A DNA stretch of 34,910 nt from Desulfobacterium sp. (GTDB lineage Bacteria; Desulfobacterota; Desulfobacteria; Desulfobacterales; SURF-7): NCBI GenBank assembly GCA_013824585.1, contig PNOB01000006.1:1-34910 (forward strand), given 5' to 3'. Each line of letters begins with the position of its first letter. The stretch's first letter is position 1. Made by a program: the position numbers and the translations under genes. Below the pieces are notes generated by a model. The model ran no database searches. It saw nothing but the letters and a program-made list of their open reading frames with translations, and had not been told where the DNA came from. This document shows positions 5,235 to 34,910 of the stretch, one piece after another.

Positions 5235-6592
5235 TGTTTACCTGACTTTCGAAAACAGACCGAAAAAAAACCATCCATGGAATCGCGATGAGGATAAGTT
5301 GTCAACCGGCGGTCATGATAGATTATCGGAGTCATTGCGCAGGGTAACTCTTTATGCCGGTCTTCCAGTTGAAAATCCAGGTGATGGTTCAGGAAGCTTT
5401 CAACAACCTGATCGGTTTCTTCCGTTTCAGTGCTGCATACAGCAAATGTCAATCTTCCTCCTGGTTTCAAAAGATCCACAAGGTTTGACAGAAACAGGAT
5501 CTGCCTTTTCTGATAACTGTCAAGATCCTTTTTGGATTCCTCCCATTTTATATCCGGATTCCTGCGGATCACACCCAGACCAGAGCAGGGTGCATCCAGC
5601 AGAACATGATCAAATTGCCCGGAAAGGTGGTTTTTCGGGTGATGGAGTAAATCAAACGGACAGGTCTCAACAATATGGACACCCAGACGGTTCATTTCAT
5701 TTTTCAATTTTTGAAGTTTTTGGGTGTTGTTGTCAAGGGCAATGAGTTGACCCTGGTTGTTCATCATCTGTGCAAGGTGAGCTGTTTTTCCACCCAGACC
5801 AGCGCAGGCATCCAGAACTTTCTGCCCGGGTTTTGGGGCCATCAGCATAGACACAATCTGTGCTGCTTCATCCTGTACCTGAAACCATCCGTTCTGAAAC
5901 GCTTCAAGTTGTGATATCGGGGTTTTGGGGGCTGTAAGCCGCAGCCCGAATGGAGAATACGGTGTTGGCTCAATGGTTTTGACTTCGGTTACAAGGGCTT
6001 TTTCAAGTTTTTCCCGTGTAATTTTCAGCGTATTGGTTCTTATGGTGATTGGAGGAATCTTATTGGCAGCCTCGCACATGGCTGCTGTTTCTTCTCTTGT
6101 ATATCGAGCCAGCCATTTTTCAATCAGCCATAAAGGGAAAGAGCAGGATATGGAGAGATATTTTGCAAAATCCGCTTCCATAGATGGAAATGGAATATCG
6201 GATCGATGTCTTGCAACATTCCGGAGCAATCCGTTGATGAACTTGGTAACCCATGGCGGGTTGCTGAGCTTTCCCAGTTCAACAGAGGTGTTTACGGCTG
6301 CGGAGTCGGGTATCCTGTCCATGTATAAGATCTGGAAAATGCCGATTCGTAAAATGTTTAAAACAGCAGGGTCCATTTTTCGGAGAGGGGTTTTGCTGTA
6401 ATGGCCAATAATCCAGTCCAGCTTGTTCCGCCATCTTGTAACACCAAAAACCAGCGAATGGGTCAGGGAACGGTCTTTTTTTGAAATTTCTTCTTTTTTT
6501 TCAAGAAGGTTTTCCAGGGCATGATCCAGCGTTCCTTTTTTCTGATCCAGGGTGTTTAAAATCTGTAATGCGGTTTGACGGGCATCTGGCAT
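5231..6592 (-). CDS. rsmB: 16S rRNA m5C967 methyltransferase RsmB (Sun/Fmu)
   Basis: RsmB methylates C967 of 16S rRNA with S-adenosylmethionine. The 453-residue protein has the full family layout: an N-terminal NusB-like RNA-binding domain (about 1-130), then a Rossmann methyltransferase domain. Motif I is VLDACAGLGGKTAHLA (259-273; most relatives have DACAAPGGKT). The two cysteines of the m5C mechanism are present: Cys336 in LLDAPCSGLGVIRRNPDIKW and Cys386 in FAVCSTETEE. ATG 6592 has GAGGAA upstream and follows fmt by 21 bases. The def-fmt-rsmB order is a common bacterial arrangement that links initiator processing and ribosome maturation. Its stop overlaps the start of the PASTA gene. Confidence 0.95.
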   Translation of the reverse strand: MPDARQTALQILNTLDQKKGTLDHALENLLEKKEEISKKDRSLTHSLVFGVTRWRNKLDWIIGHYSKTPLRKMDPAVLNILRIGIFQILYMDRIPDSAAVNTSVELGKLSNPPWVTKFINGLLRNVARHRSDIPFPSMEADFAKYLSISCSFPLWLIEKWLARYTREETAAMCEAANKIPPITIRTNTLKITREKLEKALVTEVKTIEPTPYSPFGLRLTAPKTPISQLEAFQNGWFQVQDEAAQIVSMLMAPKPGQKVLDACAGLGGKTAHLAQMMNNQGQLIALDNNTQKLQKLKNEMNRLGVHIVETCPFDLLHHPKNHLSGQFDHVLLDAPCSGLGVIRRNPDIKWEESKKDLDSYQKRQILFLSNLVDLLKPGGRLTFAVCSTETEETDQVVESFLNHHLDFQLEDRHKELPCAMTPIIYHDRRLTTYPHRDSMDGFFSVCFRKSGKQ

Positions 6593-6613
6593 TTGGATTC
6601 CTCGGCAGGGCGG

Positions 6614-7555
6614 CTATGTGAAAACCATTCCCGGTGATATTCTGGTTCCCCGTAAAAAATCCCGGATATGAAGACGTTTTCCAGATGAACCCTGGATTTC
6701 CAGAATGGAAAGCGCTCCTTTTCCTGTGGAAACACGAAGTTCGTCCTGAAACCCCTGGATAATGGTTCCCGGCAGGACAGGGTCTGTCATGGAAGCGGTT
6801 TTTGCCTTGAACAGTTTCAGGCATTTTTCACCCCAGAAAGTAAAAGCACCGGGCCATGGTGTCATGCCCCGTATAAAGGCCTCGATCCTTTCCGCATCAA
6901 GAGTCCAGTCGATCCGGCCATCCTCTTTTTTTAACAATGGCGCAACAATCGCCTGGCTGTGGTCCTGTGGTATGGGATGCAGGTTGTTTGTCTCCATCTG
7001 TTCCAGAGCGGTTACAAGCAGATTCGCTCCTTTTTCGGCAAGCCGGTCATACAGGGTTGCGGATGTGTCATCCGGAAAAATTTTTTCTTTTTCGGCAAGC
7101 AGGATATCACCCGAATCCATGCCAGTATCCAGAACCATGATGGTTACACCGGTCTCTTTATCCCCATTGATCACTGCCCACTGGATAGGGGCTGGCCCCC
7201 GATATCTGGGTAACAATGACGGGTGAATATTGATTGGATATCTTTTCGGCAGCGTGAGCAGATTTTCCGGTATGAATTGACCAAACGCGACAACGACCAG
7301 ATAATCCGGTTCATATGAAACAATCGTCTGATGGAAATGATCTGAGCGGATCGAATCCGGTTGGAGTACTTCATACCCCAGTTGCAGAGATGCAGTTTTT
7401 ACAGGGGAGGGCAATAATTTCTGGCCTCTTCCTTTGGGTCGATCCGGTTGCGTCACAACCAGAGAGATTGTGAATCGGCTCTTGTGAAGGCTGTGGAGAG
7501 CAGGTACAGCAAATTCGGGTGTTCCGAAGAAAATAATTTCAGGTGATTTATTCAT
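6614..7555 (-). CDS. fmt: Methionyl-tRNA formyltransferase
   Basis: Fmt transfers a formyl group from 10-formyl-THF to methionyl-initiator tRNA. The 313-residue length is standard. The N-terminal formyltransferase domain carries the catalytic triad Asn109, His111 and Asp147 (INIHPSLLPRYRGPAPIQWA and MDSGDI), and the SLLPRYRG loop is intact. The C-terminal OB-like tRNA-binding domain follows from about residue 205. ATG 7555 lies inside the def 3' end (8-base overlap) behind AGGGAAA, so the two genes are translationally coupled. Its substrate, the initiator tRNA, is encoded at 31.3 kb in this same window. Confidence 0.97.
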   Translation of the reverse strand: MNKSPEIIFFGTPEFAVPALHSLHKSRFTISLVVTQPDRPKGRGQKLLPSPVKTASLQLGYEVLQPDSIRSDHFHQTIVSYEPDYLVVVAFGQFIPENLLTLPKRYPINIHPSLLPRYRGPAPIQWAVINGDKETGVTIMVLDTGMDSGDILLAEKEKIFPDDTSATLYDRLAEKGANLLVTALEQMETNNLHPIPQDHSQAIVAPLLKKEDGRIDWTLDAERIEAFIRGMTPWPGAFTFWGEKCLKLFKAKTASMTDPVLPGTIIQGFQDELRVSTGKGALSILEIQGSSGKRLHIRDFLRGTRISPGMVFT

Positions 7556-8060
7556 TTTCCCTGAGTTGTTTTTTAACCTTTCTTTTGTATATCCCTCTTT
7601 TCAGCGAACTGATCCGGTCAATAAAAAGAATTCCGTTCAGGTGGTCTATTTCGTGCTGGAGTATTACGGCCAGCAACCCCTGAGCGTCTATCCTGACAGG
7701 ATTGCCCTGGATGTCCAGGCCGGTAACCACTGCAAACTCAGCTCGTTTTACATCCGATCTGAATTCCGGCACACTCAGGCACCCTTCGTTTTCAGATAAC
7801 AATTCCCCCTCTGTTGAAACAATTTCAGGGTTGATAAGAACCTGGTAAGGCCTGTTTTCTTTATCAGCTTCCGGATCAAAAACAATGATGCTTCTGTCTT
7901 CACCCACCTGGATAGCAGCCAGCCCGACACCAGGGGCTTCATACATGGTGTCAGCCATATCCTCAATCAGTTTTTTGATATCATCATTGATATCCTCCAC
8001 CGGCTTGGTTTTCTTTTTCAGGAATGGGTCTGGATAGGTAATGATTTTCAGTACTGTCAT
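7548..8060 (-). CDS. def: Peptide deformylase
   Basis: Def removes the formyl group from nascent proteins in a metal-dependent reaction (Fe2+ or Zn2+). All three family motifs are present in the 170-residue protein: GVGLAAIQ (44-51), EGCLSVP with metal ligand Cys94, and QHEIDHLNG with His136, Glu137 and His140. ATG 8060 has a GAGAGA-type ribosome-binding site. It sits just downstream of the membrane protein gene (10-base gap) and overlaps fmt, so ribF, the membrane protein, def, fmt and rsmB probably form one transcript. Confidence 0.97.
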   Translation of the reverse strand: MTVLKIITYPDPFLKKKTKPVEDINDDIKKLIEDMADTMYEAPGVGLAAIQVGEDRSIIVFDPEADKENRPYQVLINPEIVSTEGELLSENEGCLSVPEFRSDVKRAEFAVVTGLDIQGNPVRIDAQGLLAVILQHEIDHLNGILFIDRISSLKRGIYKRKVKKQLRENE

Positions 8061-8070
8061 GTGATTCTCT

Positions 8071-9135
8071 CTATGAATTGTATTTTATTTGTCTGATATT
8101 GACACCATAAACAATTGCGGAAATAAACCCGGCAATGATGACGGGAAACATTTGAATTGCGTGACTGACAAGCGCAAATCCGGAAGCCTCTTTGGATCCA
8201 ATTGCAAAAAGGGATAAAGCAAATACCGCTCCGGCTTCCCATAACCCCCAGAATCCGGGAACCGATGGAAGCGCGATGAAGAAGCAGATGATAATCAGAA
8301 CCGCGGTAGCTTCAAAAAAAGACACGTTGACTCCCGGACAACCCAGGGTGATTATATAATAAGAAACCGCCTGCATCAACCAGATGGTCAGTGAAAAAAA
8401 CACGCACAGGGATAAATTTTTTAAATTCTTTACCAGGCCAAAACCTGCTGCAATATTTTCAATGATGCTTACCAGGGGTAAACAGAAATATCGGCCAATG
8501 GCTTCTTGCACTTTTGACCCTGCAAATGAAAAAATACCCGGTATTTTCATGATCATCCATCTTGCCAGTTTCCGGATACGGTCAATGGATATCAGGGCAA
8601 TGCCGGCAATCAGAATCAGGCTGAGTTTCACCATACCGCTTGCAATGGTCATGAGCATGCTGCGGTTTAACGTATAAGATCCGAAGGTCATCTTGATATC
8701 CGGGTCAATGTCAATGAAAGACAGGACAACAGCAAAAAGAAGAACCAGAAAAAGAAGATCAAACAGCCGTTCGGTGGCAACGGTTGCCAGCCCTGTGATA
8801 AATGGGATTTTCTCTTTTTGCTGGAGGATCGCAGGCCGGGCCAGTTCACCAATTCTGGCCGGTAATACGCAGTTCAGCATAAATCCGATCATCATCGGAT
8901 GATAGGCTCTCCAGAAGCTTACCGTTGATGCGGTTCGGAGGATTACCTGCCATCTGAGGGCTCTCATATAAAAGCTGAGCACGACAAACAAAAGAGAAAT
9001 CAACATCCAAAAGTAATCAATGGATTGGAAATACTGAATCAGTTCGGAAAACGGGACATTTTTAAATGCAAAATATAAGGCAATTACAGAAATAACGATC
9101 CCTGCAAGCAGGGAAAAGATCATTTTTTTTTTCAA
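8071..9135 (-). CDS. Polytopic membrane protein, lysylphosphatidylglycerol synthase TM-like (UPF0104/PF03706 type)
   Basis: About seven to eight hydrophobic helices span the 354 residues. The pattern RALRWQVIL in the first third, LPARIGELARP, and ATERLFDLLFLVLL are characteristic of the LPG-synthase/flippase transmembrane family (AglD/MprF membrane half). IIICFFIALPSVPGFWGLWEAG near residue 290 is the matching C-terminal motif. No aminoacyl-transfer domain is fused, so a lipid-flippase or lipid-binding role is more likely than lysyl transfer, though the substrate cannot be read from sequence. The best start is TTG 9135, six bases after GAGGG. It is followed directly by a run of ten A before an in-frame ATG at 9123, which lacks well-spaced Shine-Dalgarno sequence. 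Confidence 0.82.
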   Translation of the reverse strand: MKKKMIFSLLAGIVISVIALYFAFKNVPFSELIQYFQSIDYFWMLISLLFVVLSFYMRALRWQVILRTASTVSFWRAYHPMMIGFMLNCVLPARIGELARPAILQQKEKIPFITGLATVATERLFDLLFLVLLFAVVLSFIDIDPDIKMTFGSYTLNRSMLMTIASGMVKLSLILIAGIALISIDRIRKLARWMIMKIPGIFSFAGSKVQEAIGRYFCLPLVSIIENIAAGFGLVKNLKNLSLCVFFSLTIWLMQAVSYYIITLGCPGVNVSFFEATAVLIIICFFIALPSVPGFWGLWEAGAVFALSLFAIGSKEASGFALVSHAIQMFPVIIAGFISAIVYGVNIRQIKYNS

Positions 9136-31315: not shown

Positions 31316-31392
<77 letters not shown>

Positions 31393-31437: not shown

Positions 31438-31452
31438 TTGGGTAGAAAAATA

Positions 31453-31476
31453 ATACCCAACACTATACCCAACACT
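31453..31476 (+). repeat. Tandem 12-bp repeat downstream of tRNA-fMet
   Basis: ATACCCAACACT occurs twice without a gap, and TTGGGTA (31438-31444), the inverse of its TACCCAA, lies nine bases upstream. Such direct and inverted short repeats beside a tRNA 3' end are what integrase arm sites look like, but no integrase gene is present in the window. Confidence 0.65.
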
Positions 31477-31995
31477 CAGTTTTAAAACAGACAAAAATCA
31501 GGTGAAATTTTATTTTTGGAAATGAGACTTTCGAAGGGTAAAAATTGGATTTTCCGGATTTAGGTACAGTTGATATTTCTTTTTCGAATCAATAGCCAGA
31601 TTATCCTAAAAATAGGTTTCGTTAATCTGGAAGAATCACAGGATCGGACGTCAAGTGATTTCGTGAGATCGGTTCTTCATATCGCATTTGTACAATTTAT
31701 TTATGAATGATGCATACTCCCAGATTCCAAAATATGATTACTGAATCAATAAAAAAATATTCATCGCGTCCTACCCTATACCTGCGATTATAAAGCAGTA
31801 TTTTTGATTATTTTTTCATCATCACATAATATCCATAGGGATGGTGATCCGGTTGCAACACAACGGTTTTTACTTTACAGACACCTTAAATTGCACCTAT
31901 AAATACTGTTGACACGCAAGGCGCTTTTCACATATCTTCATCTTCAAAAAACTCATTGCATAATGCTTGCAAGTGCATAAGTGAGCAGATTAGAA

Positions 31996-32061
31996 GATCC
32001 CGGTGCGGAAAAACCGCACCGGGATCTGTGAGGGGGCGGTCGGGTAACTGGCCGTTCTACC
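31996..32061 (+). mobile_element. Relic resembling the 3' end (domains V-VI) of a group II intron
   Basis: GATCCCGGTGCGG (31996-32008) pairs perfectly with CCGCACCGGGATC (32014-32026) around AAAAA. It is followed by TGTGAGGGGGC and a second hairpin CGGTCGG-GTAA-CTGGCCG (32037-32054), then TTCTACC. This order (a 34-nt-like domain V hairpin, a TGTGAGGGGG linker, and a GNRA-capped domain VI hairpin that ends in CTAC) is the typical 3' end of bacterial group II introns. The domain V here lacks the AGC triad and the two-base bulge, so it would be inactive. No reverse transcriptase is seen upstream. A plain palindrome or terminator-like structure is the alternative, but there is no T run. Confidence 0.45.
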
Positions 32062-32112
32062 TTGATTCCAAGGGCTTGGAATTTATGATTAGAGGAAAGG
32101 GGCTAAAAAACG

Positions 32113-32619: not shown

Positions 32620-32651
32620 GTCTTAGCTTTAAATTTGATCAAAAACTTTAG

Positions 32652-32728
32652 TGCATAACAGAATAGCAGCCGTGCCGATTCGCCCATTTCCGAGCCGCAG
32701 CGTCGAGATCCGGCAGGCCACAGTTGAG
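32652..32728 (+). repeat. Weak attC-like site after the zinc-ribbon gene
   Basis: GCATAAC (32652-32658) could be R'', and GTTGAGG (32722-32728) R'. The inner arms GCCGTGCCG (32668-32676) and CGGCAGGC (32710-32717) pair with one extra base in the left arm, as attC sites do. The spacers (9 and 4 bases) are not symmetrical, so this is only suggestive. The following 230 bases (32729-32959) contain no gene; a small hairpin AGCGG-TGAG-CCGCT is at 32832-32845. Confidence 0.3.
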
Positions 32729-32959
32729 GTAATCTTCGGTTAATGTCTTGATAGAGATCCAATTATGTGCAAAATACAAATACAAATCAAAAATGTTGGT
32801 CACGAAAAAAATTTTCGATGAATATTCTTCAAGCGGTGAGCCGCTCTGATATTTTTGAGCAAAATTACGTGGAAAAATTCGAAAGATCAGGAAAAATTAA
32901 AAGTCCTTTAATGGTTGGGTGGAAATGACCAAGATCCTATCTTTAAAAAAAATATATAT

Positions 32960-33030
32960 CTAACCACGGCGCTGCACCGTACGCTGACCGGCGCTACGCT
33001 TGGTTGGCTCCGGTGAGCTTTTAGTTAGCC
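32960..33030 (+). repeat. attC-like recombination site (upstream of the GspG-like lipoprotein gene)
   Basis: The outer arms CTAAC (32960-32964) and GTTAG (33024-33028) pair. After a six-base spacer, GCTGCACCG (32971-32979) pairs with CGGTGAGC (33011-33018), leaving one extra G in the left arm. A five-base spacer TTTTA then leads to GTTAGCC. This R''-spacer-L''-loop-L'-spacer-R' plan with an extrahelical base is the attC plan of integron cassettes. GTTAGCC departs from the R' consensus GTTRRRY at one position. It lies 18 bases upstream of ATG 33048. Confidence 0.5.
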
Positions 33031-33047
33031 CGAGAAAGGAGAATGTC

Positions 33048-33605
33048 ATGAGTAGACTAAATTTCGATCCCCTTATAATCCCCAAAGTCACCGCACTTCT
33101 CGCTATGTGTGTTCTCATTGGCTGCGTTTCCACGGTGCCAAAGACGTCTCAGCAAGTCTCCGAGCCACCAACTTCTTCGGCCCAGTCCAGCATGTCTGCG
33201 GAACAACGCCAAGCAAAAATTAATGCCGATATTAGTTTCATTGTCAATGCTCTTGTGGTGTATAGAAAAGATCATGGGGCGTATCCAACAGACCAACAAG
33301 GACTGCAGATCCTATTAACCGCCAGTGCATCTGGGCCGCCATACGCAAATGCATTGCCCAAAACACCGTGGGGACGGGACTACCTTTACAAGACCACAGA
33401 CGTATTGCTGATATGCTCTGCACGATCCCAACCCATGGGTATTGGCTGGAAGTGGCGTGAGGGAAACCAGCAGTGGGAAAGGACAGACAACGGCTACATC
33501 GTCCAGGTCTTGACACCAGAGGGTACTTATAACTCCATGCCTAAGAATCAGTTTGGTGACCTGCCGCCCGATGTCTATATCGCCCCGGCTAGTGGAATCA
33601 AATAA
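33048..33605 (+). CDS. Lipoprotein with a GspG-like (type II secretion pseudopilin) domain
   Basis: The product has 185 residues from ATG 33048, which has AAAGGAGAA upstream. A lipobox LIGC (Cys26) after a hydrophobic segment marks it as a lipoprotein. A Ser/Thr/Pro-rich linker follows. Residues ~57-115 then match the C-terminal part of GspG-type major pseudopilins: INADISFIVNALVVYRKDHGAYPTDQQGLQ, ASGPPYANALP, PWGRDYLY. True GspG proteins are prepilins with a methylated N-terminal helix, not lipoproteins, so this is a re-anchored version. No secretion genes lie nearby. It is bracketed by two attC-like sites and is probably a cassette gene. Function unknown. Confidence 0.75.
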   Translation: MSRLNFDPLIIPKVTALLAMCVLIGCVSTVPKTSQQVSEPPTSSAQSSMSAEQRQAKINADISFIVNALVVYRKDHGAYPTDQQGLQILLTASASGPPYANALPKTPWGRDYLYKTTDVLLICSARSQPMGIGWKWREGNQQWERTDNGYIVQVLTPEGTYNSMPKNQFGDLPPDVYIAPASGIK

Positions 33606-33613
33606 ACATGAGC

Positions 33614-33669
33614 GGCTAACGAGCCGTTCCACCAGATCGCTTACGCTCCTGGTGAACTTGGTGTTCGGG
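33614..33669 (+). repeat. attC-like recombination site (between the two lipoprotein genes)
   Basis: GGCTAAC (33614-33620) is R''-like. After a five-base spacer (GAGCC), GTTCCACCAG (33626-33635) pairs with CTGGTGAAC (33649-33657), with one extra C in the left arm and a 13-base loop. A five-base spacer (TTGGT) leads to GTTCGGG (33663-33669) in the R' position. The equal spacers, the extrahelical base and the position just downstream of a small gene fit attC. R' deviates from GTTRRRY. Confidence 0.5.
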
Positions 33670-33693
33670 GAACAAAAAAGAAAGGAGAAAGAC

Positions 33694-34296
33694 ATGCCAA
33701 CACGCCTAAGACAGATAGCTCTCGTCGGCTGTTTCAGCGTGATGATAATAACGTTCGGTTGTGGAAAAAGCGAAGAGTCGAAACCGGCAACTACAGGAGC
33801 TCAGCCGACTGCGACAGCTCAACCTGCCGTAAAGCCAAAGAAGCAATCGCCGGAGGCCATCGCAGCAAAGTTGGACAAAATGGGGGTGAAAGTGCAGGTC
33901 AAGTCAGAGGACGAGTTCCTCATAACAGAAGGTTTTCCCTACCAGAAGGACCTTAGCCTCGACTACGTCATCGAGATTGCCAAGATCGAGAAGGGCGTGT
34001 TCACGGCCTCTGAAAACAGCAACGTTCCTATAGAAATGATGGGTATGGTTTACGCTGTCGCAGGAGGTTCCTTCATACCCAAGTGCAACGCGAAGGAAGG
34101 TACGCGAACACTCGCAGATACGGTCGGGAACACGTGGATTTTTAAAGAATCAGGCATGGAGTTCAATGTCTACCTGCCTGCGGCGACGAGTCCAGTCCTC
34201 ATTGTCCGCTCAAGGACGGAGGGAGCGATAATCAACTTCACCAAGGAGGGAGTGCGGCTCAAAGGATTCATCCTGAAGCCGTTTGGAGAACCGTAA
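33694..34296 (+). CDS. Predicted small lipoprotein of unknown function (200 aa)
   Basis: The start is ATG 33694 behind AAAGGAGAA; an open frame further upstream runs through the attC-like site and is not credible. A signal peptide ends in TFGCGKSEE, a weak lipobox with Cys23. A Thr/Ala/Pro linker (residues ~30-52) is followed by one alpha/beta domain with KLDKMGVKVQVKSEDEFLIT, GKIEKGVFTASENSNVPIEM-like content (IEKGVFTASENSNVPIEM) and EGVRLKGFILKP. I do not recognise the domain. It shares its layout (ribosome-binding site, lipoprotein signal, low-complexity linker) with the preceding gene, but the sequences are unrelated. Confidence 0.7.
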   Translation: MPTRLRQIALVGCFSVMIITFGCGKSEESKPATTGAQPTATAQPAVKPKKQSPEAIAAKLDKMGVKVQVKSEDEFLITEGFPYQKDLSLDYVIEIAKIEKGVFTASENSNVPIEMMGMVYAVAGGSFIPKCNAKEGTRTLADTVGNTWIFKESGMEFNVYLPAATSPVLIVRSRTEGAIINFTKEGVRLKGFILKPFGEP

Positions 34297-34434
34297 ACCA
34301 CCACCGAGTACACAGAACGCAGAATGGAGACACCGAACGTTGGGCATCGATTCATGATAGACCCAAATATAGACGGTAGCCCCACTGTCTCTTCGAGATT
34401 GGTACGGAATCAACTGACTAAGGAGGAAAATGGG
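34297..34434 (+). other. Spacer with a GTTGGGC motif
   Basis: GTTGGGC at 34339-34345 matches the R' consensus of attC sites exactly, but I find no pairing arms upstream, so I do not call a site. TTGGG (34340-34344) and CCCAA (34362-34366) can form a weak hairpin. The ribosome-binding site AAGGAGG of the next gene is at 34420-34426. Confidence 0.3.
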
Positions 34435-34910
34435 ATGAGTTGCTTGGATAAAAGCGTCAAATGCTTGGTTATGATGTTTGTAATATCTTGTATCTTCCTG
34501 TCAGCCTTTGCATACGCTGGCATTGACGACGAGTTGGCAGCAGTTACCAAAAAAGGTAACGCAATAGAAATCCGCCCCCTAATAGATAAAGGGGCCAACG
34601 TCAACGCACGAGATACTGATGACTCAACAATACTGATGGTAGCATCGGACTACGGTCATATAGAAGCCGTGAAGATATTGCTTGCGAAAGGCGCTGATGT
34701 TAATGCAAAGGCTAACAATGGATTTACAGCTCTAATGACTGCATCAAACAAAGGGCATTCAGAAGTCGTGAAAATACTGCTTGAAAGCGGGGCTGCCGTA
34801 AACGCCAAGACAAAAGAGGGATTTACGCCTTTAATGTATGCGTCATTGAAAGGACACGCGCAGGTTGCGGAATCATTACTTGCTAAGAGGGCGAGTCTTA
34901 ACGACAAAGA
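34435..34910 (+). CDS. Secreted ankyrin-repeat protein (cut by the window end)
   Basis: The frame starts at ATG 34435, nine bases after AAGGAGG, and stays open to the window edge (158 codons). A signal peptide (about residues 1-28, ending AFAYA) is followed by ankyrin repeats of ~33 residues: LIDKGANVNARDTDDSTILM, VASDYGHIEAVKILLAKGAD, VNAKANNGFTALMTASNKGH and so on. At least three full repeats are visible. The repeats are close in sequence to each other. Ankyrin repeats bind proteins; with a signal peptide this one acts in the periplasm or outside. An earlier ATG at 34430 is followed by a stop at once and can be excluded. Confidence 0.85.
   Translation, partial: MSCLDKSVKCLVMMFVISCIFLSAFAYAGIDDELAAVTKKGNAIEIRPLIDKGANVNARDTDDSTILMVASDYGHIEAVKILLAKGADVNAKANNGFTALMTASNKGHSEVVKILLESGAAVNAKTKEGFTPLMYASLKGHAQVAESLLAKRASLNDK

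Follow-up and report, generated by a model that had tools for sequence, protein, structure and literature searches.

Near the right-hand end of a contig of Desulfobacterium sp., a single small gene lies between two short structured regions that resemble the attC sites of integrons, with no integrase gene in view. Is this a genuine piece of a cassette array, and if so, what has become of its integrase? The DNA analysed here (the window) is the entire contig C6 (34,910 bp) of the draft genome G000, which comprises 505 contigs and is 89.5% complete. With a probability of about 0.9, we read positions 32958-33669 as a fragment of a CALIN, located in a species-specific segment downstream of a conserved tRNA-Met gene. 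A CALIN (cluster of attC sites lacking an integron integrase) comprises two or more attC sites without an integrase in the vicinity; here there are two sites, and IntI was found neither in the window nor in the bin. A complete integron has intI and attI beside its array, an arrangement that does not occur in the window. The element is of a known kind, and there seem to be several in the genome.

In integrons, the substrate of IntI is the bottom strand of attC in its folded state, and strands are exchanged at G/TT. Both sites of the window (Table 1) have an R'' box ending in AAC and an R' box starting with GTT, with complementary outer arms. Site 1 reads ATCTAAC cacggc GCT[g]CACCG, then 31 nt, then CGGTGAGC tttta GTTAGCC; its outer arms form 5 bp (CTAAC/GTTAG) and its inner arms eight pairs, with an extra g in L'' and spacers of 6 and 5 bases. 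Site 2 reads GGCTAAC gagcc GTT[c]CACCAG atcgcttacgctc CTGGTGAAC ttggt GTTCGGG; its inner arms form nine pairs, with an extra c in L'' and spacers of 5 and 5, and its outer arms pair over exactly 7 bp with the start of its own cassette and over 4-5 bp in the array. In both sites the unpaired base of the left inner arm follows three pairs, and neither site has a run of T downstream. The same scanner returned this layout from plasmid class 1 cassettes, such as GTT[c]AAGCCG of the aadA2 attC. The attC plan that the initial annotation had proposed, including the extra base in the left inner arm and a structure kept while the sequences differ, is therefore borne out by the anatomy and by the two covariance models described below; its coordinates were right for site 2 and began 2 nt short for site 1 (32960 in place of 32958). 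This anatomy is such as IntI should be able to use.

Table 1. Positions of the features in and beside the array (numbering of the window)
Feature	Position	Strand	Remarks
tRNA-Met	31316-31392	+	last conserved gene before the species-specific segment
ORF P0004	32113-32619	+	upstream of site 1; zinc-ribbon-like start, two duplicated membrane segments
attC site 1	32958-33030	+	R'' 32958-32964; L'' with extra base 32971-32979; L' 33011-33018; R' 33024-33030
Recombination point of site 1	between 33024 and 33025
Complete gene cassette, 639 bp	33025-33663	+	ends GTTAGCC and GGCTAAC, exact complements
P0001, cassette gene, putative lipoprotein	33048-33605	+	lipobox LIGC; GspG-like pseudopilin domain at residues 51-116
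attC site 2	33614-33669	+	R'' 33614-33620; L'' 33626-33635; loop 33636-33648; L' 33649-33657; R' 33663-33669
Recombination point of site 2	between 33663 and 33664
P0002, orphan putative lipoprotein	33694-34296	+	probable gene of the next cassette; its own attC not seen before the contig end
Ankyrin-repeat protein, apparent signal peptide	34435-34910	+	runs off the contig; array membership unproven

Plain minimum-energy folding of site 1 was not clearly better than that of shuffled sequences (z of -1.07 for the bottom strand), and both sites fold weakly within the array (pfold 0.015 for site 1 and 0.0009 for site 2), the poor value of site 2 arising because its R' box comes from the next cassette. 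Since the plain fold of site 1 is not decisive, the case rests on the anatomy, on the covariance models and on the match of the cassette ends, not on folding energy. As read from sequence, sites 1 and 2 are genuine attC sites with canonical anatomy. Two other candidates were dropped: one at about 32650-32752, which folds no better than shuffles and was missed by both models, and one after P0002 with an R''-like ACCGAAC (34332), which has no matching arms or R' and gave no match to the second model on the + strand. No third attC site was seen between site 2 and the contig end at 34910, and a search against Rfam matched tRNAs only. Further sites downstream, which the initial annotation had hoped for, are thus missing from this contig, whereas many attC sites occur on other contigs of the genome.

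The training set of the first covariance model (R1) comprised 23 attC sites, taken from plasmids and relatives, the sites of the window being left out; the model was run on the window with filters off and a cut-off of E ≤ 10. Exactly two matches were returned, namely site 2 (15.8 bits) and site 1 (10.7 bits), with E-values that are weak (0.12 and 2.1) and, as the covariance tool itself states, rough. R1 also detected the arrays adjoining the integrases of relatives. From 38 attC sites found in this way, in integrons of relatives and one cyanobacterial plasmid, a second model (R2) was built; it gave the sites of the window 21.2 bits (site 2) and 20.3 bits (site 1), with E-values of 0.002 and 0.0036, against 9.4 bits for the next-best match there. 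Eleven loci outside integron arrays (108,750 bases) served as background and gave one match, on contig C77 of G000, which is attC-shaped too. Matches above background, which the initial annotation had named as a check on its reading, were therefore obtained with both models. In the genome-wide search with R2, 150 of 361 candidates were scored and the sites of the window are not among the matches listed, so that the count of attC sites is a lower bound.

Within an array, the next cassette begins behind the first G of the R' box, and therefore the two half-boxes of one and the same cassette should pair. The cassette of the window starts after the first G of GTTAGCC and ends in the R'' box GGCTAAC, and all four variable positions match (4/4). 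In a sample of 20 cassettes, taken from the arrays of the congener G001 and from those on other contigs of G000, the boxes of the same cassette match at all four positions in 17, while the two boxes of a single in-array site share on average 1.0 matching position and random pairs of boxes match fully in 8%. When the 639 bp are closed into a circle, the attC hairpin becomes the minimum-energy fold, with a 7-bp R stem, spacers of 5 and 5, a 9-bp inner stem and one bulge, and its pfold (0.26) compares with 0.23 for the attC of aadA1; the expected sequence of the joint is ...TTGGTGTTAGCC.... This complementarity is what one would expect of a unit that was once circular, and its exactness suggests recent activity. 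The off-consensus R' box of site 2, already remarked on in the initial annotation, has its explanation here, as this half-box belongs to the following cassette and boxes of the form GTTCGNN are common in the arrays of this genus. The start of the cassette that would correspond to site 1 (GTTAGAT) was looked for upstream of that site and was not found.

P0001 sits between the two sites in the direction expected of a cassette gene, as had been proposed, and its start codon lies 23 nt past the recombination point. Despite the GspG-like domain, it has, on direct reading, no prepilin start, and it falls below the NCBIfam cut-off for true GspG. Among 58 relatives no full-length relative was found, the matches covering the GspG domain only (about 34-48% identity), and named genomes gave partial matches only, best over the same domain. 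P0002 starts 30 nt past its own recombination point; it has no match in Pfam or NCBIfam, no relative in 388 other genomes of the order (0/388) and none in plasmids and viral contigs. The leaders of the two genes are nearly identical (AGAAAGGAGAAtGtCATG, 16 of 18 bases) and lie at 33033-33050 and 33679-33696, 646 nt apart. Single-sequence structure models of both proteins (mean pLDDT of about 40) were set aside. For the ankyrin-repeat gene, a start at 34435 is preferred over one at 34324 because of an AAGGAGG and a signal-like N-terminus seen on direct reading. Within P0004 a stretch of about 165 nt is duplicated (71-84% identity), which yields the two similar membrane segments after its zinc-ribbon-like start; it is possibly the gene of a truncated first cassette, though this is unproven. 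The earlier suggestion that the neighbouring genes are cassettes too stands in part: membership is shown for P0001 and likely for P0002, and is unproven for P0004 and the ankyrin-repeat gene.

Synteny with three congeners covers the homoserine dehydrogenase, YggU and tRNA-Met genes and ends at about 31440-31570. After tRNA-Met, the congeners G001 and G002 carry other genes, and since the counterparts of those of G001 are found on contig C299 of G000, the array of the window forms a segment specific to this species; it is absent at the same locus in the congeners. P0001 and P0002 are accessory genes without synteny, and the fixed gene order in relatives that would have spoken against a cassette was not seen, P0001 having only distant matches to its GspG domain. 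At 31625-32070, exactly where synteny ends, there are diverged dispersed intergenic repeats, with related copies on many contigs of G000 and its congeners, those elsewhere in G000 being 74-86% identical; the repeats include an inverted repeat (31995-32027) whose 14-bp arms match perfectly around a 5-nt loop.

No IntI or relic of one was found in the window, and the bin gave no IntI match above the cut-off, so that the absence of a visible integrase noted at first holds for both. The bin gave only partial integrase matches without the integron-specific part of the profile, which are probably XerC/D-like. In contrast, TIGR02249 was matched above the cut-off in 33 of the 59 genomes searched, including all three congeners. 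In G001 (contig C8) IntI adjoins about 18 attC sites, and the integron integrase of G002 (contig C1, 209-1170) is split over two frames and may be inactivated. The intI genes of the congeners sit at a locus other than that of the window, and the leader sequence found next to intI in this genus is not present in the window. A gene near IntI in G001 has its counterpart at the extreme end of contig C250 of G000, which stops about 2.2 kb short of the position of intI, and hence intI may simply be unassembled. Arrays of attC sites were found on contigs C285, C132 and C97 of G000. On C132, sequence that adjoins intI in the congeners is followed by three attC sites, and a kinase gene takes the place of intI; such a layout could reflect loss or displacement of the integrase. 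The sequence before this array is the leader shared by the three congeners, and the gene at the intI position is of the protein kinase/PEGA/FGE-sulfatase kind (8650-8745 and 5332-8265). Contig C285 (1-5498) is built of cassettes; it carries no fewer than five attC sites, and among its genes are one for a HigA antitoxin and, ahead of it, one for a HigB-like toxin. The lone attC-shaped site on C77 (9737-9793, - strand, 21.6 bits) lies just before a lipoprotein hydrolase-like gene and may be a further scattered cassette or a remnant.

It is scarcely credible that both hairpins are repeats or terminators of an ordinary intergenic kind, resembling attC by chance. The indifferent plain fold of site 1 and the richness of this genome in dispersed intergenic repeats would fit such an origin, but two sites of differing sequence share a common attC anatomy, models trained without them single out exactly these two, the ends of the cassette match exactly, and neither site is followed by a T run. 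We also hold it quite improbable that the core genes and the array were joined through the repeats at 31625-32070 in a chimeric assembly: the junction is indeed made of sequence that has relatives in other parts of the genome, but copies diverged to this degree are a poor substrate for mis-joining, and the attC pair and the cassette lie outside the repeats.

The fate of the integrase leaves more room for debate. The window might hold one part of a complete integron, with the integrase either past the contig end or in a gap of the assembly, and its integrase-less state would then be an artefact of assembly; the fragmentation and incompleteness of the genome, the premature end of C250 and the finding that draft genomes overstate CALINs (PMC9024848) would accord with this, and yet we think it unlikely, because left of site 1 the contig continues into conserved core genes with neither intI nor the leader, and intI has a different locus in the congeners. 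The layout of the window bears on the same point. Cassettes normally point away from intI, so that the intI of the window would be expected left of site 1; as the array points away from the core genes there, that side does not conceal a missing integrase. The converse explanation, in which the integron integrase is gone from the species and every array of the species is a frozen remnant, is doubtful: it draws on the lack of IntI in the bin and on the kinase gene at the intI position of C132, while the bin is incomplete, C250 ends where intI would follow, and cassette ends that are still exactly complementary suggest recent activity. For the species as a whole, the integrase may have been lost or may merely be unassembled.

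In our preferred reading of the window as a CALIN fragment, an IntI of the species or lineage would have brought the cassette in, acting on the folded bottom strand of attC, which it would cut and join at G/TT. IntI supplied in trans could excise the cassette again, and P0001 would probably be read from its own ribosome-binding site. The fragment was probably exported from the main integron of the genus, whether it was inserted at a secondary site or moved by a rearrangement. A bolder picture, which we put forward tentatively and consider rather unlikely, is that cassettes of the species are kept as a scattered reservoir, free of integrase, in at least five parts of the chromosome (C6, C132, C285, C97 and C77), with the leader surviving at the original integron and intI replaced by the kinase region, so that cassettes move only in trans or stay frozen. 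With this array, an uncultured genus joins those whose cassette arrays lie apart from the integrase. The complementarity of cassette ends is a simple check that needs only the sequence, and can confirm two-site arrays that score weakly. P0001 and P0002, putative lipoproteins without close relatives, fit a report that cassettes are rich in secreted proteins (PMC9668308).

Like the CALINs of the IntegronFinder definition (PMC9024848), the array has at least two attC sites, no nearby integrase and small accessory genes in one direction; it differs in its shortness (two sites seen), in being interrupted where the contig stops, and in coming from a draft genome with intI-bearing congeners. Displaced CALINs, away from the ilvD integrase locus, occur in about half of Xanthomonas genomes (PMC12444791), and CALINs can be mobilised in trans (PMC12444791, PMC9668308). 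The array of the window resembles those of Xanthomonas in occupying a chromosomal place other than the integrase locus, although it belongs to another lineage and its position is seen in one species only. Class 1 integron cassettes (e.g. aadA, aacA) share the spacers of 5-6 bases and the extra base after three pairs in L'', whereas the array here has neither a resistance gene nor the intI1 platform. The chromosomal integron of G001, unlike the window, has IntI and its long array at another chromosomal locus, but it belongs to the same genus and has the same attC anatomy, complementary cassette ends and R' boxes of the GTTCGNN type.
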